From assembly GCA_023014335.1 (NCBI GenBank), contig JAECYW010000003.1:3844001-3908000 (forward strand): 64,000 bases of DNA, written 5' to 3'. The notes under the pieces are model-generated. The model saw nothing but the letters and a program-made list of their open reading frames with translations. It ran no database searches and was not told the DNA's origin. The stretch comes from Galerina marginata. Its lineage: Eukaryota; Basidiomycota; Agaricomycetes; Agaricales; Galerinaceae. Position 1 is the stretch's first letter. Each line of letters opens with the position of its first letter. The position numbers and the translations under genes are program-made. Shown here one piece after another: positions 15,401 to 56,100 of this stretch.

Positions 15401-18400
15401 GCTGCTGGTTGCCTATTGTCGACGTCTCGGACGACGTTGACATGAGCTCTGGAGGCAGGAATTAGTGTTAGGGTGTATTTGAACATATATACCGACCTTC
15501 TAGACCATGTTCGAGAGTAAACTTGACTCCTTATTGTTATAACACGGCTTTTCACCACTCCGCGTGGTGATTTCCGACTTTCAGGAGGTTCGAGGTCGAG
15601 GATTCAAAAGCTTTAGGCTTTTATAAGACGCAGATAATGCATTGATAAGGTTATATACATTATTTAAATAGGTCTCAGATAGTTTACAAAGGGTATTATC
15701 GTTAGGAACATCTTAAACCTTTAGCTGCTAGCTCCAATGCACGAACTCACGAAGATTTCCTGCTCACTTTTCGTAGCTCTACATACACTCAGTGTATTTA
15801 AATAGCATTTTCTAGTCCTTAATTTTTTAAAGGATACAAATGGGTTCTATACTACGTATGTAGGTCTATCCTACGCAATCCCGCCTCTTGGATGTACTTC
15901 AGAGCGCCCAATGACGTTCGAAACGTCGTCGAGCACTCGGTGTTCGCCCGGCCCGACTTGATCAACAACCGATCAACAACGTTGATCTGGCTTCTCCACC
16001 AACCACCAACACCTGCCTCCACCCTCGCTCGTCCCGCCCTTCAAGACCTCAAAGAGTCTTTTGTAAGTCATTGAATTTCTGTTTTATTTCCTTTTCTAAC
16101 CTCTATCTCGACTGATAGCTGTCCAACGAGGCCAGCAATCGTCGTAACCGCGTCGCGTGCCCCTCGCATCGAGCATGTGGGCCGGCGCATTGGGCCTCGA
16201 GGTGTAGGGTGGGTAGAGGTGGTGGGAGTAAGAGGGATGGGGAGAGCCTGAGGACGACCAGTCGCGATACGCCACCGACGCACGCAGCGACCGCGAACGA
16301 TGGCCCAAGTACCTTCACATACAGACAACATCGAAGCCACGTACACCGCAGCCCCAACGCCCTCCGGACGCCCACTACGAACCCAACCGTCGTTGCAGCC
16401 ACGCACACTGCAGCCACGCACACTGCAGCCTCGATGCCCCTTTGGACACCCACCACGAACCTAACCGCCTTCACGACGCCTCCCAGCCGCGATAAACCCC
16501 GGACCCCAATCTTACACCACCCCCTTCACAATCCAAGGTGCATAGCGGCGAGCGTTGAATACTCACGCCTGGGAATTCCGCTCGCCGCCCTCACCACTAT
16601 CCTTACAAGGCCACCCAGCTCGACTCGACCCGATTCGGGGAGCTCGATTGTTCAACCCCAGCGTGCACATCGCTCCAGCGCGCCTGCGATACCCACACGA
16701 AGCCATCACGGGCTGCGGAGGCGAGGAGAATGGGGACTAAAGTGATAGCAGGGGCAGGAAAGGTGGCAGGCAGCTGCGTCGGCGGTTTCAGGGGAGGGAG
16801 ATAGGTGGTGACAACGACAGCACAGGCCGCTGCTGGCTACCCCGAAGACGAAACGAGGGTACCAACGGCGGCCTAATTAGCTGCTGTTTCCTCGCCCCTC
16901 TCGTCTTCGAGCCCTTGCATGGGTGTATATGCGGATCGAGTCCCTCACGACTTGATCTTCTCCTCTCCTGCCCGCCCCTCCGAACGCAGGCAAAGGGACG
17001 ACGAACCACAGTGTTCGTCGTCTCGTCAAGCCGCTTCGCTCTGCCTCTTCCTTTCTCACCGCCGCGCCCCACCTTTCCCTTTACATTCGGGTTCGCCTTC
17101 GGTGTTTTGAATGCGAATATTTTGTATTTAGGTGACATTTTTGATATAAGTAGAAGATGTTATAGTATATCCTTTTGAGCCCACTACTATCTGTGTGATT
17201 ATGAGTGAAACTAGCACTTGGGACTCGGTATTACTGAGAGAACTTGTAGGTTTGACCACTGAGTACCTAGTATGTAGGCTAACCTGCCCATCCAAGATGG
17301 TTTCCTTGATAAAATTTGTATCATTATGTTCAGAATTACCCACATAGTTCAGCTATGTCTACAGAGGTAGGGTTCGCCTTCGGTGTTTTGAATGCGAATA
17401 TTTTGTATTTAGGTGACATTTTTGATATAAGTAGAAGATGTTATAGTATATCCTTTTGAGCCCACTACTATCTGTGTGATTATGAGTGAAACTAGCACTT
17501 GGGACTCGGTATTACTGAGAGAACTTGTAGGTTTGACCACTGAGTACCTAGTATGTAGGCTAACCTGCCCATCCAAGATGGTTTCCTTGATAAAATTTGT
17601 ATCATTATGTTCAGAATTACCCACATAGTTCAGCTATGTCTACAGAGGTAGGGGGAGCAATCATTTGAGCCCAATATAGGGCAAAAACGGTAGGTTTTCG
17701 AGGTATTCTATTTTTAGATCTCATCCAGCGGGGCTGCATATAGTCGTGTCTCGTTATACCCCTTCCAGTACTCTTCTGGCTCTAAATTCTATATCATTAG
17801 ATTCGTATTTTATAGGACATTACGATTATGCATTAATATATGGAGGGAAACAAAAATTAAAGGTAAAATACTGCGAAAACTGAAAGAATCTATTTTTATC
17901 GCACCTGCAACAGGGACCGAAAAGGCGCGCGACGCGTCCTAAAATGGCACGAGGACCCCGGCGGGACTTCTGGCATCCGTTACATTTTTTTTACGCCCCA
18001 TCCCGCCCTCCCTACGGGGTGACCAACATCCCAGATGGAATGTGGGTACCAATGCCGACCCCTGGGCGCTTTTTCCGCGCCAAAAAGCGCCCCCAATGAC
18101 GAGCAGCAGCAAAAATTAATGCCCATCAATATTTAGAGACCCTGAGTGATTTTTTCCCGCGCCTAAGCGCGCCCAAAAGCGCCCAAATGATGAGCAGCAC
18201 CCTACATACAGTGCCCGACGTCATCCTGAGTATGCCCGCCCCCCTAGGGCACAAAAATACGCATCCCCGGGATCCCCAGGCCTAGTACATGCAAAATGCA
18301 TGGGGACTGCCTTTTGGCAGACACTGGCCAAACGCACTGTGGACGTATAACACTAGTTAGGCAAAGCCCAGTGTTTCATATAAAAATATAGCAGTATAGG

Positions 18401-36911: not shown

Positions 36912-39150
36912 ATGTCACTGGCACCAGACGCGGTTGAGACAGCCAATATTCTTTCACCCGACTTACCTTCAAGATTTGAAGAAACCCTCGCTGGTTGCTC
37001 GCGGTATGCAATATCCAGTCGATTACCTTTCATGATTTCTCACTGCTAATAGGTTTCGGATCCTCCTGGTTGGAAATGTTGATCAATTTCTTAACGTGCT
37101 TGATACTATCCATACTCACGTTTACCCAGAGTGGAGTCGGCAAGTCCTCGCTTGTTAGCAGTATCTTCAACATCAGTCCAGGTGTATGTGCTCGTCTTCC
37201 TCCTCTTGACGATATCTGAGTGGGCATAGGGTATCGACATTGCGGATGGTCATGCTGGAACAGCTGACATTACTCATGGGTACACATCCGACGAAAATAC
37301 GCGATTTATCTTGCACGACAGCCGAGGGTTTGAAGCCGGTTCCACGGGCAATTGGGACACGGCACAAAAATTTCTTCGGGATTCGAGTGCGAAGGGGATG
37401 CAGGATCGAGTTCATGCAATTTGGTAGGACATTTCCGTTCAAGATTTATTTAAAATATCGGACCCATCTTTAATAGGCTTTGCGCCGAGGCCCCCCGTGA
37501 AGGCGCGAGATTACAGCAGATCGGCGACGAGAAGCTCCTCTCTCTCGCTCAAGAATGTGAGGTTGATGCATATTCTTAGTTCCACCCCGTCTAACTTGCA
37601 GTTAAGTGCACATTCCCGTTATCATCGTGTTTACAAAATACGACATCCTTATCGACGAGCAACATTTTGAGGCCAAGAACAAGCTTTCGGACACTGAGGC
37701 AGCAACAAAGGCCGAAGCTTGTTTCAATGATCGTATCAAGGCACTCAAAGCAAAGGAGCTCGCGGTTGTCAAAGTATCGACCGATAAGGATTATCCAGGT
37801 TGGTCCTATTAATCGCCTCATTGTACCAGAAATCTCATACATCCCAGAATGGCTTGACACGCTAGAGGAGTTGACTAATGTGACTCGCAAATGTCTTGCT
37901 GACACCACTAGTGTCATTGACAGCACGAATTCGTCGGACGAAAATCATAGCCAACATTCCGAACAACAAAAAGCCGAACAACCAAGAGCAGAAGGAGTAT
38001 CGGTGCTATGGGCCGCTGCTCAGCAAATAAATGCGCCACAGAAGGTTAAAACGTCCATTAGGTGTGTCTTTAGCCTATGCCCCGACCGCTTTGTCTTAAT
38101 TCGAGTCGCCAATTGTCATTGCGTTCAGCGAAGGCTTTAAAAGTAGGTTTTTCTCACTTTGATAGCCCTACTCCGCACTCACATTTTCGTAGAATATTGG
38201 CGCGATTTAGGAAAGAGCGCATTTTTTCAAGGACAGACTGTGACCCAATGTGTCTTCCGTATCCACGACGACATTCTTAAAGTCTGGAATTTCAGTGACC
38301 CACACAAGGTTCTGGCGCTCTTCATCGAAAGTCCTTGTAGTCTAATCAAGGCATCTTAGCTACTTGCCCAGGAGGACTTTCTCACGCAAATGACAAGTCT
38401 CGTCAGTCCACTATTAGAGGGACATGAAGCTGAAGTCGAACAGTAAGTCGATTTCGGTCCAGTACCCCATTGTCTGAAAAACTTTCTGTATAGGGATAAC
38501 TCGGCAGACAAACTCTGGAGCGCTCTGGGTAGTGCGGCCCCCGCCGTTCTGAGTTCTCCCCATATGCTAATCGCAGCCGGCATTGCTGGCATTGGGCTTT
38601 TGGCGTTCAAATTTCTCTATGGAAGGTACCAAAAACTGTACGATTTTATACTGTTTGCATGTCGTATGCTTCTGATCTTCGTCTGTGGCTATCTAGACCT
38701 TTGACTGCGAGATATCTGGGAGCATATATTGTCGGTCTCACATGTGTTCTCCATCGCCTCTTCGTGAAAACGCGCCTTACGGAGCCGCCGACACCTTTGT
38801 CAGAGGAACTCATTTCTAGCGTGGTGAATACTTACAAAGAAAAGGATTTGTGGCGCGTCCATAACTCCGTCTCCGCGATGAGTTTTATGCCCGGCTATGA
38901 AGCAAAAATCAAAGATCTGATTTACGAGACCATTCCCCTTCCACAACCCAGTCAGGACATTGCGCCTGTATCTCGGGCCTCCCAACACAATATGTCTGGT
39001 CCTTCAGACGGCAGACGCTATTCGCCTTCTGTATCAATATCAAATGTCAACACCTCAAAATATCCAGAAGGTGAAAAGAAGGCAGAGAGACATTCGGTTA
39101 GACAGATGTTTTCAAGCTGGCTAACTTCCTTGCGTCAGCTTAAAAAGTGA
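36912..39150 (+). CDS. P-loop GTPase (fungal G-domain family) with C-terminal membrane segment, gene 1
   Basis: ATG at 36912 (MSLAPDAVETANILSPDL). The G domain is split by short introns: FRILLVGN joins SGVGKSSL across a GTTGAT...CAG intron (37078-37130), giving G1 as GNSGVGKSS. G3 is LHDSRGFEAGS (about 37310-37335) and G4 is VFTKYD (about 37630). Later exons include KYWRDLGKSAFFQGQTV (about 38190), DFLTQMTSLVSPLLEGHEAE, a hydrophobic stretch LIAAGIAGIGLLAFKFLYG (about 38570-38630), and YLGAYIVGLTCVLHRLFVK (38712 on), ending in LRQLKK and a stop at 39150. The likely role is nucleotide binding at a membrane; the exact function in this expanded fungal family is not known. Gene 2 downstream has matching features. 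Confidence 0.7.
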
Positions 39151-39912
39151 TTTTGAGCGGTTTTACCAGTAGAGCGTACGTGGCATTTAAAAATCATTAA
39201 AACGAGCTGTTACGATGGCCATTCAATAAGAGGACATTTAAAAGAGCTTCCTAGCCAAGTAATTTTGCTCTTTTCTTCTCCAGACATTCTATAGTGATCT
39301 CTGGGGACCAACTCCTTCGTCTAGAGATAAAAATACGATATTTCATCACTACTTCAACACGCGTCACGACCTTCACGCCGTGGCAAATATCTAGAGAGGA
39401 TAGCATTCTGGTAGAAGTTACATCTTATTCTTAAATTCAGGATACTGGTCAACCTGGTATTCTGGCTCTACATGCTCCTGTACACGACGAACTCATTTTA
39501 ATATCCAAAAACGTCCGAGCCAGCCCAGATGTGGGTCTGAAAACTCGAAAAATTATCCAAAGAGTCCAAATGCCAACCAGATCCCAGCCGTTGACTCAAC
39601 TTGAACATTCATTTCCTTGCTCGATTGGTTACTTAAATAAAACATTAGCCCAATTTGCAGGCTACATAATAATTCGCTTACCTTAGACCTGAGAATCGAG
39701 CTATTATAGACCGCTCTCCAACTGTCGACCATGCGATTGGGACAAATATATGCTCGTATGCTCGAGGACGTTTTCTATGAATCGTAGAGGCATCCACAGA
39801 CGCTCCAACGACGTATTGTCATTGCACCGTTGTGCGGAATAAAGGCTGGGAAACTCACATACAAATGTCGTGTCAGTTGGATCGACCGATCATTGTATTA
39901 TGAATAGAAGCC
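39151..39912. other. Intergenic spacer
   Basis: No gene or repeat recognised between the 3' end of GTPase gene 1 and the convergent minus-strand open frames. Confidence 0.4.
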
Positions 39913-40969: not shown

Positions 40970-43900
40970 ATGGCTGATAATCGCGGACAGACTGCCAAAG
41001 AGTCCAAAGGATTTCGCAGTCGACTGAAGGACTTCAACTTCAAGAAGGCTATGGGACTTGGATCGCGGAGTACTAGTACACCTCAAAGCCGCTCGAATTC
41101 GCCTTCGACCGTCGTTCATGTTGCTCCGCCAGTCGCTACCGCGCCTCCGTCTGTTGTTTTGCCCCCACCACCACTTACTTTGCCACCACCTGCTTCTCAG
41201 CCTCCGCCTGTTGCTGGACCTCCAGTTACTTTGCCACCATCTGCTTCTCAGCCTCAGCCTGCTGTCGAGGCTCCAGTCGTTCCCGTGCCTGCAGCTGATT
41301 CCTCACCCGCTGCAACAATTGACCCGGTCACGGTTGAAGAAGCTGCAAAACTTCGGGCAAAATACACCCGCTTTCGCATTCTTGTTATCGGGAGGGCAAA
41401 TGCTGGTAAAACAACGCTGCTAAAGCGGGTGTGCAATACAACTGAGGAGCCATCCATTTACGACGAGGGCAAAAACCTGGTGAGCTCTCTGCTTATCGTC
41501 ATATTTCACTCTCAATATTTCTTCATAACAGCTCGAACCAACCTCTGAGGTGCGGCTCGATGATTTCTGCGCCTACTTTAAACTAGATGACTGATTTCAA
41601 CATTTAGCGCGGGATCCATGATGTTCGTCGCTCATTTGTCTTCAAGAGCAACCCAGGGTTCATCTTCCATGATTCACCTGGATTTGAGGCTGGGGGAGAG
41701 GAGGAACTCAAGGCTGTAATGGCTTTTATTCAAAAGTGCTCGAAGGCCACAGATGTCAATGACCAAATTCATGCCATCTGGTATATTTTTCCTTGCCAAT
41801 TTTGATGTGGTTAGGTGACAAAGTGCTCAGGTTCTGCTTCAATCCAGATGTATCACGTCCTTTATCATCATTAGAAGTGAAATTCTTCAATGAGGATCGT
41901 TCCTGGAATGGTAAGCTTGTCTGAATTGTCTAAATAGTTGTTGTTGAAGACTCACAAAATACAGTTCCAATTGTGGCAATCTTCATGAAATTTGATGATC
42001 TCATCAAACAGGTGTATAACAGAAAACAAGACAAAGAGAAAAATGTCAAGAATGCATTGGATACCTTAGAAAAAAAATTCAAGCAGCCACTCAGTCATTT
42101 TATATTCTGTCCTCGCACTTATGTTCACTTTGAGGGTGGGTCATTTGTCATTCAGTAGCTGATCTTGAGACTGATGCCAAATCAGCTATCCACAAGGATG
42201 AAAGTGATCATCAGAAACAGGTTGGAGAACTAATTAAACAGACAGCAGCATCAATCGACAGTCTTGCACTGAAGATGCTGTTTGTCACTATTCAACAAAA
42301 TAACATGGAGCTTTGTATTGAATATGCAGTGAATGAGTATGTTGCACACTTTTCTACTGTTGCTGGAACTTATTTTGTGTTGCAGAAATATTTTTTTTTT
42401 GACTACTGACATGGTTTGGTTCTTTGAGAATATCAGATATGCCACCACTGAAATAAATATAGGTGGATTTGATTGAAAAAACTGCAAGTTGGTTTGGACA
42501 TTGCTACAGAACAGTATGTAATAATATTAAATGTTGTTTTCTAAATGACAGTGGAAGTTGAAAAGGATTATGTGAGAAAATTTCTTGTGTGTCAGAAATT
42601 GAACACATCAGTGATAGATTTTAGGATGTAAGTAATATACCATTTCCTGAAAAAAATAATATTGACAGACATATTTAGTATGTAAGTATGACAATTAAAG
42701 TGTTGGACAATTACCTAAAAAGTAATTTCAAAGGGAAAAAAGGTCAGATTTGAATCAATTACAGAGTAATATCTGAATACAGTTTACAGATGGTGATTAA
42801 GTGGATTATTAGTGGTTAATTTTAATTGCTGACAATTCTTGCACCAAATCCCATCCAGGAAGTGAGTTGTGTGCACATTCATAAGCTTGATTTTGATTGC
42901 AGACATTTCCTGCATCAAATCTGATCCAGTTAGTGAGTTGTGTGCACATTCATGAGCTTGATTTTAATTGCTGACATTTTCTGCATCAAATCTCATCCAG
43001 TCGGTGAGTTGTGTGCACATTCATGAGCTTGATCTTAATTGCTAACATTTTCTGCATAAAATTCCATCCAGACCGTGAGTTGTGCGCCCATCCATGAGCT
43101 TGATTTTAATTGCTGACATTTCCTGCATTAAATTCCATCCAGGGAGTGAGTTCTGTGCACATTCATAAGCTTGATTTTGATTGCTGACATTTTCTGTCCC
43201 ATCCAGTATGTGAGTTGTGTGCACATTTATGAGCTTGATTTTAATTGCTGACATTTTCTGCATCAAATCTCATCCAGTCGGTGAGTTGTGTGCACATCCA
43301 TGAGCTTGATTTTAATTGCTGACATTTCCTGCATCAAATCCCATCCAGTATGTGAGTTGTGTGCACATTCATGAGCTTGATTTTAATTGCTGACATTTCC
43401 TGCATTAAATTCCATCCAGGGAGTGAGTCGTATGCACATTCATAAACTTGATTTTGATTGCTGACATTTCCTGTCCCATCCAGTATGTGAGTTGTGTGCA
43501 CATTAGGGCTGCGCACCGGCCGTATTACGGGTACGGCCGTCGAGCTTACGGGTCAAACGGGTTGGCTACCGACACGACCGTCCCGTTTTGGCTTGACCGA
43601 CAAATCCAAACGGGTCGGGACGGGTACAAAACGGGTTACAACGGCCGTCGACGGCCGTTTTCTTTCTTCCACGACGTTGTTAGTCTTTTGTTGAATTTTT
43701 TATAACCTAGTGGATTAGAGAAGTGTTGTAGATAGTTACTATAGCATATTAAAGGCTTAGACATAAGTATTACGGCTTGCACGAGCAAGAGTCATTATGG
43801 CCAACCACAACAAGAAACACAATACCCCCGAACGGACTCTATAATGGCGGCGTTCCAACCAATCCTGTTCACAATACGTGTCACTCCCCTCCGATAATGC

Positions 43901-45679
43901 TCGCGGGACTTAAATTGTGTGTTACTTGGCCATCCGCCAGACTTCGAGAGCATTTCCCAACCGATTTATTGCTTAATTAAGACATTTTCTATTAGACCCG
44001 TATGACGGCCGTTACGGCCGTAAATTGACGGGTGACGACGGCATGCACCCGTCGTCGGACGGGCCGTTCTTGTGTGCCCTTGAGGCGCCGACGGGACGGG
44101 TTTTTACCCGTAAGACCCGTCCGTTGAACCCGTCGATACGGGTACGGTGCGCAGCCCTAGTGCACATTCATGAGCTTGATTTTAATTGCTGACATTTTCT
44201 GCATCAAATCTCATCCAGTTAGTGAGTTGTGTGCACATTCATGAGCTTGATTTTGATTGCTGACATTTTCTGCATCAAATCCTATCCAGGGAGTGAGTTG
44301 TGTGCATATTCATGAGCTTGATTTTGATTGCTGACATTTCCTGCATCAAATCCCATCCAGTATGTGAGTTGTGTACACATTCATGAGCTTGATTTTAATT
44401 GCTGACATTTTCTGCATCAAATTCCATCCAGGCTGTGAGTTGTGTGCACATTCATGAGCTTGATTTTAATTGCTGACATTTTCTGCATCAAATTCCATCC
44501 AGGCTGTGAGTTGTGTGCACATTCATGAGCTTGATTTTGATTGCTGACATTTCCTGCATCAAATCCCATCCAGTATGTGAGTTGTGTACACATTCATGAG
44601 CTTGATTTTAATTGCTGACATTTCCTGCATCAAATTCCATCCAGGCTGTGAGTTGTGTGCACATTCATGAGCTTGATTTTAATTGCTGACATTTTCTGCA
44701 TCAAATTCCATCCAGGCTGTGAGTTGTGTGCACATTCATGAGCTTGATTTTAATTGCTGACATTTCCTGCATCAAATCCCATCCAGAGAGTGAGTTGTGT
44801 GCACATTCATGAGCTTGATTTTAATTTCTGACATTTTCTGCATCAAATCCCATCCAGGGAGTGAGTTGGGTGCACTTTTATGTGCTTGATTTAAATGCTG
44901 ACATTCCCTGCATCAAATCTCATCCAGCTTGTGAGTTGTATGCACATTCATGTGCTTGATTTTAAATGCTGACATTTTCTGCATCAAATTCCATCCAGGG
45001 AGTGAGTTTTGTGCATCTCCCATGCTTGATATTAATTGCTGATATTGTTTATACAATGCCATCTAGGCTGTGAGTTATGTCTTTTGTTGTCATTATTTAT
45101 GGCTAATATATCACTTTATACACTATCCAGTTTGTAAGTACTCTATTAAATTATTTTCCCATATCCCCTCAGTCAATCTGCATGCAATAGATGGATAGAG
45201 TTAAAGATGTTACTTGTGCCCACTTCAATGTATGTTTTTTTATTATTTTATCCTGCCCATCAATTCCAATTTTTATAGGTGCTATCTTTGAATGCTTTTA
45301 TAGGTCTGATCAGAAATGTTTCTTTTTATATCATTATTTTTTTCTTATCATTACATGTTTAGCCATTCTGATATGTCTTGAGCATTCATTCTGGCTTACC
45401 CACTCTGGCTCCAGTCCTACTGAAGCCTTCATTCAAGCTTTGGACACCTATATCCAGGACTTAGAAAAGCGTACAATTCTTGATCAAACATTGGATAACT
45501 ACTTGAAATCAAACCAGAGCAAGGACTGGTTTGCAATAAACTATCATCCATCTTCTGATGAGTGCATGGACCTCCAAAACATAATTTTTAACAATCTTCT
45601 TTGTATGGTCAGCTGTTCTCTTCATTACTATAGTCTTGCTGATACAATATTTTCAGCTCGTCCAAAACCTATTGGATAA
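40970..45679 (+). CDS. P-loop GTPase (fungal G-domain family), gene 2, with tandem intron-like array
   Basis: ATG at 40970 (MADNRGQTAKES); exons 40970-41479, 41532-41549, 41608 on. A proline-rich linker (residues ~45-110) precedes the G domain: G1 ILVIGRANAGKTT (about 41380-41415), G3 FHDSPGFEAGGEEEL (41668 on), G4 IFMKFDDL (about 41981). LALKMLFVTIQQNNMELCIEYAVN closes the recognisable 5' part near 42335. The 3' part (about 45315-45679) has a hydrophobic helix (FLIITCLAILICLEHSFWLT) and TEAFIQALDTYIQDLEK, resembling the C-terminal region of gene 1. The 2.4 kb between is the array at 42862-45185, which is either one huge intron or many introns with one-codon exons. Base composition is markedly AT-richer than in gene 1. 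Confidence 0.65.
42862..45185 (+). repeat. Tandem array of 71-bp intron-like units with variable 3-nt spacers
   Basis: About 24 units, period 71 bp (for example GTGAGT at 42862, 42933 and 43004). Each unit starts GTGAGTTGTGTGCACATTC (5' splice consensus), contains TTGCTGACATT (branch-point consensus CTGAC), and ends CATCCAG (3' splice consensus): a 68-nt minimal intron. Between CAG and the next GTGAGT there are exactly 3 nt in every unit. These are variable: GGA, TAT and GCT five times each, TTA and TCG twice each, and GAA, ACC, AGA, CTT and TTT once each. Two units are about 10 bp shorter. The last units diverge, and the final one uses GTAAGT. Diverged introns with 3-nt spacers (GAT, TAT before GTAAGT) also precede the array near 42635 and 42680. 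One unit is split by a MITE. Confidence 0.85.
43504..44159. mobile_element. 656-bp hAT-type MITE inside the intron array
   Basis: Ends TAGGGCTGCGCACCG and CGGTGCGCAGCCCTA, 8-bp duplication GTGCACAT at 43496-43503 and 44160-44167. The subterminal regions are rich in ACGGCCGT and ACCCGT motifs. No coding capacity. It is the same length and has nearly the same termini as the element at 46436-47091. Confidence 0.9.
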
Positions 45680-53107: not shown

Positions 53108-56100
53108 GTGGAATTGCACAAAGTCGGAACGACAGAGAGGCTGAAACTCCATCGGTCATGTGATACAACTGCCGGTGGTTCAACTTTGCTTACGCGTTCC
53201 TTTTCTCTCTGTTCACCCAACTGTTCTGTGTTATCGCGTAAATCCCAACCACGCGCTCCTTATTACTTACCATGCTCTGTTTTCTACTTGTGCTACTGTT
53301 GTTCACAGCAGATCCCTTCTTTCCTCTGGGCCACAATTCTCAATGTACGTCAAATCTGGATGCTGGACACTGCCAAAACCGCTCACCTTCTACTGTCAGT
53401 CAAATTGCCGAGAGTCCCAGTGAACGTGATACCTAATGCATCTAATTTTGGTGCTCCATTCCAATGTATGTTTTCTTTTACTTGCACCGTGAAAGCTGAA
53501 CCAACGTTGATGTTGCAAATCTATGTAGATATGCCCATCACCCGGACTGGTGATCTTGTTCTGTCAACCCTACCATGTGTCTCTGCTTCATATCACCTGG
53601 GTGAGTTCCTTAAATTTCTATCTTATCTTTTGTGCTGAATCATGTTCCATACCTACAGGTACTAATGCTATTGCTCATGTGTCCAGCCTTACTCCGCTGG
53701 CTTTGCCTTGTGCTTGGAGTACCTCTCACCGCCTGTCACCAGTTATGGTTACACCTGGTGTTCAGTGTATTTCTCGGGGCTTGACGTCAACCGCTGCTCT
53801 GACCAATGTTCAGAGTAACTATCGTGGCTTGACATCAACTTTGTTGACCACTGCTCTGACCAATGTTCAGAGTAACTATTGTGGCGTGACATCAGTTTTG
53901 TTAACCACCGCTCTGACCAATGTTCGGAGTAACTACTGTGGCTCAACATCAGTTTTGTTGACCGCTGCACTGACCAATGTTCAGAGTAACTATCATGGCT
54001 TGACATCAACTTTGTCAACGACTGCTTTGACCAATGTTCAGAGTAACTATCGTGGCGTGACATCCATTTTGTTAAACACTGCTCTGACCAATGTTCAAAA
54101 TAACTATTGTGGCTTAACACCAATTTTGTTGACCACTGCTTGGACCAATGTTCTAAGTGACTTTGATGCATTATCCTCAGTCCAGAGTGCACTGAAATTC
54201 TTAAATTCTAATATTCAAATGCCAATGCTCTGGTGGTTTCAACTTCTCTGTGAGATTTACGTCTCTATTTCAAAACATGCAGCTAGCCAAATTTTTAATA
54301 TGTTGATAGAGTGGCATGTAAGCACATTTAGAAGAAAAATTGCTATCCAGATTATGAACTTGTTCCTCCGGCAAAATACTTACCGCAGACAGGATTTTGC
54401 AGCTGCAATTATATGTCTTGAGAAAACTGGGTATACCTCTGATATTTGCCATTTTCCAACCTTGATAAATCGAGTTTATTCATTGCTCTTTAGAAAAAGA
54501 TATCACAGGTATCAATCACTAAGGAGATTCAAGAATGGTCGGCGGCACTTCTTGCCCCAATTTGTGTTTCATGAACCATGCAAGCCTTTATCAAAAGAGG
54601 CTAAATTCTCAACAAAAAAATATCAGTATGGTGGTGGGTATAGTCCACATGTTTTTGTTTATCAAACTCTTGAACCTTATTTTGTGACTGATCCCTCAAA
54701 AATTGATGCTTCTGCAGAATTTCAATATGTTGACCATGTCAATGATGTAGATATTTTGTCATATCCAGAGGGCCACTATGTTTATACTAATATACCACTT
54801 ACTTCTCTTTTTCAAATGATACCTCTGACAAAGGCAAGAAAAATTGCATCATTGCACAAAATACCAGCTGGTTCACGTTGTAGTGCAGCTCAACTTCAAG
54901 CATGTACTGAAAGTCATTCCTGTCTTATGTGTACTACTCATTTAACCGTTTTTTCTACTAAGAAGAATTCTTCACAGATGGCTAATGACAGACTAAAAAA
55001 ATCACGAAAAAAACTAGCAGAGGAAAAAAAAGCTCAGAAAATGTCTACATCAAATTCCAAAGCACAAAAAACAAACACTAAAAACTCTTCTGATATAGCC
55101 ACTAATTTTCCACCAGCTGCTATGGATGACAATCTTGCTCATTCGGTTCTTTCAAGTGCATGTAACAGGATGTTGCCTAAAAATATAGAAGAGGCTGGAT
55201 GCGCAGTTTGTGGTGAACTAAAGCCTATGAGAAATCTGAGTCGCTTGAAGAATATTAAAAATCACCTTCATGTTTTAGTTTCATCTGGTGTGACACGAAT
55301 TGAACGGAAGGAAAACACATCTTCTATTCGAGAATATACTGGGCCTGTTCTTGATTATTCTTGCAGCCGTGTTTGTGACAACTGCAGAGGTACCTTACGG
55401 AAGGGTAAAATACCACGGCTTGCACTTGCAAATGGTCTTTGGCTAGGGAAAGTTCCAGAAGAATTAAAATCTCTGCGGTTTGTTGAAAAGCTTTTAATTG
55501 CCAGAGTGCGTCACACCTGCTCATATGTTAAAGTTGCATCTGGAATGCGGAAAATGAAGGCAAATATTATTGCATTTGAGTCTCCAATTCCTAAAATTTA
55601 CAAGGTTCTTCCACCTCCTCGTGAAGACATGGATGATGTTTTAGCCATTTTATTTACTGGCCCATGCAAACCCACGCAGGAAGATTTGAACCGCACACCA
55701 TTTCTTGTCCGCAGAAACCATGTTGCAAAGGCTCTTCAGTGGCTAAAGTTAAACCATTCTGACTATGCTGATATTGAAATTTCCATTGATAATCTAAATC
55801 AATATAGTGAAAATTCTCCTCCTGTATCTATTGAATACCGAGAGGCAGTAACTAATAAGGTTGCGGAAGGGACTAGTGTTTTTGATATGGAAGTTGATGA
55901 TGGAACAGAAGAAGGTGAATGTCCTTTTTCTGTACATGGCCTTACTGGTGAATCTCTTGATACTATGTCTACAAATAAAATCAAAGCAATGGCCATTCGA
56001 CATTTAAATAGTGGAGGTAAAATGCTTGCTGTTGGCCATAGTGATAAATTTGAATCAATGTGGAATAATCCACAGTTATATCCTCAAATGTTTCCATGGC

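Follow-up and report, generated by a model that had tools for sequence, protein, structure and literature searches.

A predicted array of single-codon microexons in a G-domain GTPase gene family of Galerina marginata

RESULTS

A predicted GTPase gene with three-nucleotide exons

We analyzed a window of 64,000 nucleotides (C23:3844001-3908000) from the genome of Galerina marginata (69.3 Mb in 43 contigs) and describe a predicted G-domain GTPase gene in which a tandem array of introns is interrupted only by single codons (Table 1). When the predicted exons were joined from position 41608, a single open frame was obtained that runs through 27 three-nucleotide exons to a stop codon at 45679. The joined order is the G domain, WFGHCYRT, exons of 6, 3, 3, 9, and 3 nt, 24 single codons, a 39-nt exon, a 25-nt exon, and the C-terminal exon. 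The exon borders are predictions, and the final exon may contain one more intron. The draft protein scored 24.2 bits against PF01926 (cut-off 21.9). In a structure search, IRG-like and septin-like G domains were tied, and IRG chains matched the predicted fold with a TM-score of about 0.34-0.42 at 10-13% identity. The likeness to IRG and septin-like GTPases is one of predicted fold alone, and a shared fold is no proof of function.

Table 1. Predicted exons and other features of the GTPase gene (window coordinates)
Feature	Position	Strand	Remarks
Predicted G-domain GTPase gene	40970..45679	+	~40 predicted exons, 27 of 3 nt
First exon	40970-41479	+	Fits the same frame; read separately from the exon join (open reading frame plus exon end)
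Small exon LEPTSE	41532-41549	+	Same frame; matches homologues such as P0001
51-nt exon VDLIEKTASWFGHCYRT	42463..42513	+	Last ordinary exon before the tiny exons; WFxH motif common to homologues
6-nt predicted microexon GATTAT (DY)	42566..42571	+	Acceptor AAG
3-nt predicted microexon GAT (D)	42625..42627	+	
3-nt predicted microexon TAT (Y)	42679..42681	+	
9-nt predicted microexon GGAAAAAAG (GKK)	42734..42742	+	Acceptor AAG
3-nt predicted microexon ATG (M)	42790..42792	+	
Array of 24 predicted single-codon microexons (ELSTGYSYGYLGYAAYAARGLGAF) with 23 complete introns	42859..45133	+	
Array codons 1-12, starts	42859, 42930, 43001, 43072, 43143, 43207, 43278, 43349, 43420, 43484, 44219, 44290	+	
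Array codons 13-24, starts	44361, 44432, 44503, 44574, 44645, 44716, 44787, 44858, 44928, 44999, 45067, 45131	+	
Transposon-like insertion in one array intron, 656 bp	43504..44159	.	Inverted ends, 8-bp target duplication
39-nt exon MDRVKDVTCAHFN	45191..45229	+	Phase 0 to phase 0; counterpart of TDGVHNGVSAHFN in P0022
25-nt exon VLSLNAFI plus one base	45279..45303	+	Counterpart of TPSSYAFIA in P0022
C-terminal exon AILICLEHSFWLTHSGSSPTEAFIQALDTY...	45363..45679	+	ILICLEHSFW identical in P0022

Each triplet of the array is preceded by CAG, with the exception of TAG at 45067, and is followed by GTGAGT, or by GTAAGT after the last triplet. The intervening introns are of fungal type, with GTGAGT, a CTGAC-like branch site, and CAG. 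The first-pass annotation of this DNA had reported about 24 intron-like units in tandem, ten different triplets among the 24 positions, and a GTAAGT intron behind the last spacer, and all three were recovered; the ten triplet kinds are GAA, TTA, TCG, ACC, GGA, TAT, GCT, AGA, CTT, and TTT. It had also given every unit as 71 bp with a 68-nt intron, which holds for 17 of the 23 introns, while the others measure 61 nt (three), 67, 65, and 732 nt (one each). The three-nucleotide spacers that it placed ahead of the array correspond to the GAT and TAT exons, and the chain to which they belong is larger (6, 3, 3, 9, and 3 nt). Tandem Repeats Finder returned periods of 71 and 277 bp at the array, the latter being a higher-order unit.

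The 732-nt intron carries the 656-bp insertion, which leaves the splice signals intact. Its ends are TAGGGCTGCGCACC and GGTGCGCAGCCCTA (inverted ends TAGGGCTGCGCAC), and it is flanked by an 8-bp target duplication, GTGCACAT; from the inverted ends and the duplication, we take it to be hAT-like. The insertion end was matched at at least 20 other places among the matches listed, and a start similar to that of the insertion also lies at about 46437.

Arrays at the same place in paralogous genes

A genome search with the G domain yielded 14 genes, including the window gene, at E ≤2e-7, a line that was set after the list was seen. Arrays of CAG-NNN-GTRAG units lie downstream of the G domain, at the same place, in 14/14 of these genes: six on the contig of the window, C23 (the window array and L009-L013), two on C18 (L014 and L015), one on C20, four on C40, and one on C42. 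Nine arrays were read whole, and the five on C40 and C42 were read in part. A DNA search with the window array likewise retrieved paralogous arrays on C23 and C18. In every unit read across the 14 arrays the spacer is 3 nt; array sizes vary between paralogues, with 13-37 one-codon exons over the nine arrays read whole.

The tiny exons in front of the array recur as well. The chain x[HY]-D-Y-Gxx was present in 9/9 paralogues read, with xY or xH at the place of the 6-nt exon, D at that of the GAT exon, TAT at that of the TAT exon, and Gxx at that of the 9-nt exon. Because the script was written to seek these motifs (GA[TC] preceded by an acceptor and followed by GTAAG, TAT between acceptor and donor, and GG for the 9-nt exon), and because P0022 was already known when the 9-nt exon was located, the comparison tests whether the motifs are present and in order and does not amount to a blind prediction. 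The counterpart of the ATG exon reads M, E, or R in 7/9 paralogues; the script found none in L015 or in the C20 gene, the latter of which does show a GAG next to a GTATAT donor.

Weaker and more distant G-domain matches numbered five in the first search, with more in a later one. The sole weaker match inspected, a distant G-domain gene in the window (~37.0-39.6 kb), has no array. In its later part, this gene (window ~37000-39600, same strand) apparently has a single hydrophobic stretch without interruption.

Genome-wide occurrence of three-nucleotide spacers

The sequence-blind pattern CCAG-N3-GTRAGT-N45-60-CAG-N3-GTRAGT gave 164 matches in the 69.3 Mb and none as the reversed control, and all 164 fall in nine genes of the GTPase family. 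With the acceptor variants GCAG, ACAG, and TCAG, 55, 15, and 20 matches were found, respectively, and the controls gave 0. The simpler pattern GTGAGT-N45-60-CAG-N3-GTGAGT matched 199 times versus 9 in reverse. Spacers of 4-12 nt taken together were not enriched genome-wide (19 matches versus 54 reversed); one of the 19 sits within the L015 array and is due to an additional GTGAGT inside an intron.

Among these variant matches, a single one with two consecutive 3-nt spacers fell outside the known arrays, at C42:2122920-2123008 on the minus strand. A further array with 3-nt spacers lies at C19:224298-226048, also on the minus strand, with TCAG acceptors and 12 pattern matches, often 72 bp apart; the genome search gave no G-domain match on the contig that bears it.

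Triplets behave as codons and diverge faster than the introns

No stop codon (TAA, TAG, or TGA) was present in frame 0 among the 256 triplets that satisfied the strict motif in the 14 arrays, a set that includes pre-array triplets such as GAT and TAT. The pooled base composition predicts 18.5 stops and the position-specific composition about 14. When the joined triplets were read in the other frames, 8 (+1) and 22 (+2) stops appeared. Counting each triplet kind once per array left 122 kinds and again 0 stops. The array is in phase 0 on both flanking sides. The length of the array introns is free, ranging from 58 to 79 nt, and 157/213 are not divisible by three.

Within arrays, divergence per site is 0.55-0.68 for the triplets and 0.07-0.24 for the introns, so that the triplets exceed the introns by a factor of 2.5-8.1 in 11/11 arrays tested (of 14). 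The earlier description had the triplet as the variable part of a conserved unit, and none of the 11 arrays showed the even spread of variation expected of a plain minisatellite. The third codon position was the least variable in 13/14 arrays, whereas the opposite holds for ordinary coding sequence. The pattern is compatible with diversifying selection on the residue or with a donor-site constraint on the preceding base, and the two are not separable. Codon identity followed the intron variant only loosely, with correlations of -0.08 to 0.32 in nine arrays and 0.86 in L044, which has only five introns. Among 28 pairs of identical introns, the upstream codon differs in 15 and the downstream codon in 11.

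Intron sequences found only in the arrays

Consensus introns, written by eye, were compared between the array families. Those of C23 and C18 are related, and those of C20, C40, and C42 show no convincing similarity to C23/C18 or to each other; among the other 12 of the 15 comparisons, the largest values were C18-C20 (z 3.6) and C23-C40 (z 2.1), with the shared branch site included. A genome search for other copies of the unit found them only inside arrays of the GTPase family. None of the best candidates scored was a copy of the C23, C20, or C40 unit outside the family arrays, the C42 and C19 introns not being searched, and the remaining matches of the C23-unit search were due to the 656-bp insertion included in the query. 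A dispersed introner was not supported, as the three intron types searched were found only in arrays.

Kinship among introns was examined in a set without C20, from which introns outside 60-72 nt or without the branch motif were dropped. The nearest relative lay in the same array for 120/157 introns (ties included), and for 0/9 in L013. Window introns had a mean distance of 0.13 within their array, 0.13 to L009, and 0.11 to L011. Concerted evolution within arrays is therefore partial only, the window array being no closer to itself than to L009 or L011. In L012, the block TTT-GGA-GAA-GAA-ACA-TAT is duplicated, codons together with introns.

Intron-free homologues contain the predicted chain

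A protein search with draft residues 120-520 returned 600 matches, of which 120 were listed. The homologues among those listed belong to mushroom-forming fungi, and many annotated ones end at or soon after WFxH. Four proteins encoded on short contigs of the Joint Genome Institute (JGI) read through the predicted chain without introns: P0022 (WFGHCYWM-NH-D-Y-GKE-E), P0013 (WFGHCYYM-EH-D-Y-GKS-E), P0121 (WFRHSHYD-SY-D-Y-GKT-E), and P0036 (WFGHSLYA-GH-D-Y-GDT-Q). Beyond the chain, P0022 continues as EARGFAFAGFRRFAVGAGAGRFGAGADA-F-TDGVHNGVSAHFN-TPSSYAFIAILICLEHSFW, which matches the F, the 13-codon exon, and the exons that follow it in the window gene. At the place of the array, P0121 reads EGGLGGGRLGGRLGHLRLGLGGRGGGLGHLRL. 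Both proteins hold about 30 residues of restricted alphabet at that place, followed by the conserved part. When the C-terminal portion of the draft served as query, P0022 was the sole match up to E 10.

The contigs of P0022 and P0121 measure 1015 and 1554 bp, of which 879 and 1101 are coding. Because only ~136 and 453 non-coding bases are left, they cannot hold some 30 array introns, and since the genes of relatives carry introns, they most likely derive from spliced mRNA. The lowest-complexity window of 20 residues fell at the place of the array in 7/12 short-contig homologues (JGI or lgn), where 1.4 would be expected; the 12 are those with enough sequence beyond WFxH, and no segment was picked by eye. 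In P0033, residues 296-314 and 316-322 have a pLDDT below 50, and the place of the array is predicted to be disordered.

Other repeats in the window

A 57-bp tandem repeat of 6.4 copies, with a period divisible by three, lies at window positions 53789-54153. At 17089-17653, a 281-bp direct duplication is present in two copies with 100% matches.

DISCUSSION

The array is very probably spliced intron by intron, so that each exon contributes a single residue and the codons together form a variable loop of the protein. The proposal of one-codon microexons in a G-domain gene, made earlier for this DNA, gains support from the lack of stops, the phase 0 on both sides, the chain in 9/9 paralogues, and the intron-free homologues. 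Splicing in this species is inferred from the sequence. The spliceosome would remove the array introns singly, by intron definition, and in sequence, because neighboring sites are too close for simultaneous binding. The resulting loop, which structure prediction renders as disordered, would link the GTPase domain to C-terminal helices. At the DNA level, the array would gain and lose whole cassettes of one codon plus one intron. The most plausible reason why the codons change much faster than the introns is that the loop either drifts freely or is under diversifying selection, with the introns being maintained as units of splicing.

Several observations weigh against intron-by-intron splicing. 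A 3-nt exon between two introns is sterically hard for the spliceosome, and sequential removal must be assumed. Two of the tiny exons require AAG acceptors, and one ordinary exon uses a GTTTGG donor. Splice signals are mutated in some units of L011, L013, L014, and L015; in these, the junction is in register, one splice site is mutated, and the spacer is again 3 nt, although the relaxed motif applied to them required 3 nt and the independent part is the register, with 64-73 nt on either side. Duplication relates most of the 256 triplets to one another, so that they are not independent, and the contrast in stops rests mainly on frames 0 and +2, as frame +1 holds just 8. Retention would bring an in-frame stop in only 118/213 array introns. 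Among homologues, the lowest-complexity window lies at the place of the array in only 3/20 genome-annotated proteins (1.4 expected), the full-length P0027, P0056, P0083, and P0090 have just a short ordinary peptide there, and no clear low-complexity run is seen there in the short-contig proteins P0035 and P0050, both of which extend to the C terminus. Finally, we infer the cDNA origin of the short contigs, and contigs of the same appearance would result from a retrocopy or from a gene that lacks introns.

In addition to intron-by-intron joining, the arrays might serve mainly as a device for alternative splicing, with subsets of codons joined differently per transcript and many loops produced per gene. 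We consider this addition less likely than not. Donors and acceptors are nearly alike, and pairing of any donor with any later acceptor would drop whole codons only, so that variants in length and splicing would stay in frame. However, each short contig shows one form, and joining of the codons may just as well be constitutive.

It is very improbable that the array is a minisatellite born from an intron, lying within one large intron that is removed whole, with triplets that are never translated. Plain tandem and higher-order duplication (the 277-bp unit) would suit such an origin, as would a frame that survives skipping of the whole array and the absence of a long low-complexity run from the four full-length homologues with a short peptide. 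Yet untranslated triplets should accumulate stops, of which none was seen, the spacer keeps its length on four dissimilar intron sequences, and the intron-free P0022 and P0121 hold the stretch. The first-pass annotation had offered an intron turned minisatellite as one of two explanations; its duplication by units stands, whereas the unspliced form is disfavored by the frame and by the intron-free proteins. Repeated insertion of a mobile introner into a formerly continuous low-complexity exon, at one codon border after another, is, if anything, a shade less probable still: the near-identical introns, the codons between them that resemble unrelated text, and the existence of introner-like elements in fungi (PMC4457414) speak for it, but random insertion would not always leave one phase-0 codon, multi-unit blocks duplicate with their codons in L012, and the three intron types searched were found only in arrays. 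The introner-like amplification suggested in the earlier description of the locus is not supported, given this last point and the introns of distant paralogues, which show no convincing similarity.

Building on one-by-one splicing of the array, a broader proposal can be made, which we hold tentatively, at somewhat short of even chances. The hypervariable loop of an immune-like GTPase may consist of interchangeable cassettes of intron plus codon, lengthened, shortened, and reshuffled in DNA, sampled in RNA with the frame always preserved, and kept in the paralogues even though the introns were replaced by dissimilar sequences. The device may be widespread in mushroom-forming fungi and missed by annotation; the spread is suggested because restricted-alphabet loops occur in several short-contig homologues.

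If the microexon array is real, an exon at the coding minimum would occur dozens of times consecutively. It would test how the spliceosome copes with donors and acceptors too close for simultaneous binding, and whether near-identical splice sites are paired sequentially or at random. It also raises the question of how introns remain alike while the codons between them diverge, and it suggests a frame-proof route to variation in a protein loop. Furthermore, as many annotated homologues end near the last pre-array exon, it points to a class of genes cut short by annotation.

Comparison with known systems

The first-pass annotation knew of no described equivalent, and literature searching, in which most papers were judged by their listing or the start of their abstract, turned up no array of one-codon exons. 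In the micro-exon genes (MEGs) of Schistosoma, which encode variable, secreted proteins, very short exons follow one another in runs, and most have a length divisible by three; the exons are given as 3-81 bp in the abstract and as at least 6 bp in the results section, most of them being 15 bp, and the introns span 0.1-5 kbp (PMC10526429). Runs of tiny exons are common to both systems, whereas the window gene has 24 consecutive one-codon exons, introns that are tandem copies mostly of 61-68 nt, and a GTPase as host. Introns of the length given there for MEGs are not typical of the array, in which 22/23 measure 61-68 nt. Aphid bicycle and megacycle genes possess many tiny internal exons of the same phase, and one megacycle gene has more than 100 microexons, according to the parts of PMC9168663 consulted; those exons are in phase 2, versus phase 0 here, they encode other proteins, and no one-codon runs appear in these parts.

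Isolated microexons of plants and animals reach 3 and 1 nt, as in the 1-nt exons of APC11 and VPS55, and one rice transcript contains adjacent microexons of 5 and 12 nt (excerpts of PMC8831610). They pose the same splicing task at the size limit, but those described in the excerpts are isolated and conserved and lack tandem arrays of repeated introns. At their 3-nt spacers, the units of the arrays show the signals of microexons on all four dissimilar introns: donors of the form GTRAG, branch sites resembling CTGAC, and acceptors that read CAG or TAG. Fungal introner-like elements are near-identical spliceosomal introns present in hundreds of copies in unrelated genes (PMC4457414); near-identical introns are common to both, whereas the introns studied here were found in the arrays of one family only. 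In filamentous fungi, functional microexons were previously undescribed according to a 2024 abstract (PMC11121469). We therefore rate MEGs, bicycle genes, isolated microexons of 1-15 nt, and introner-like elements as the nearest known systems, and place the array at the far end of microexon-bearing genes.

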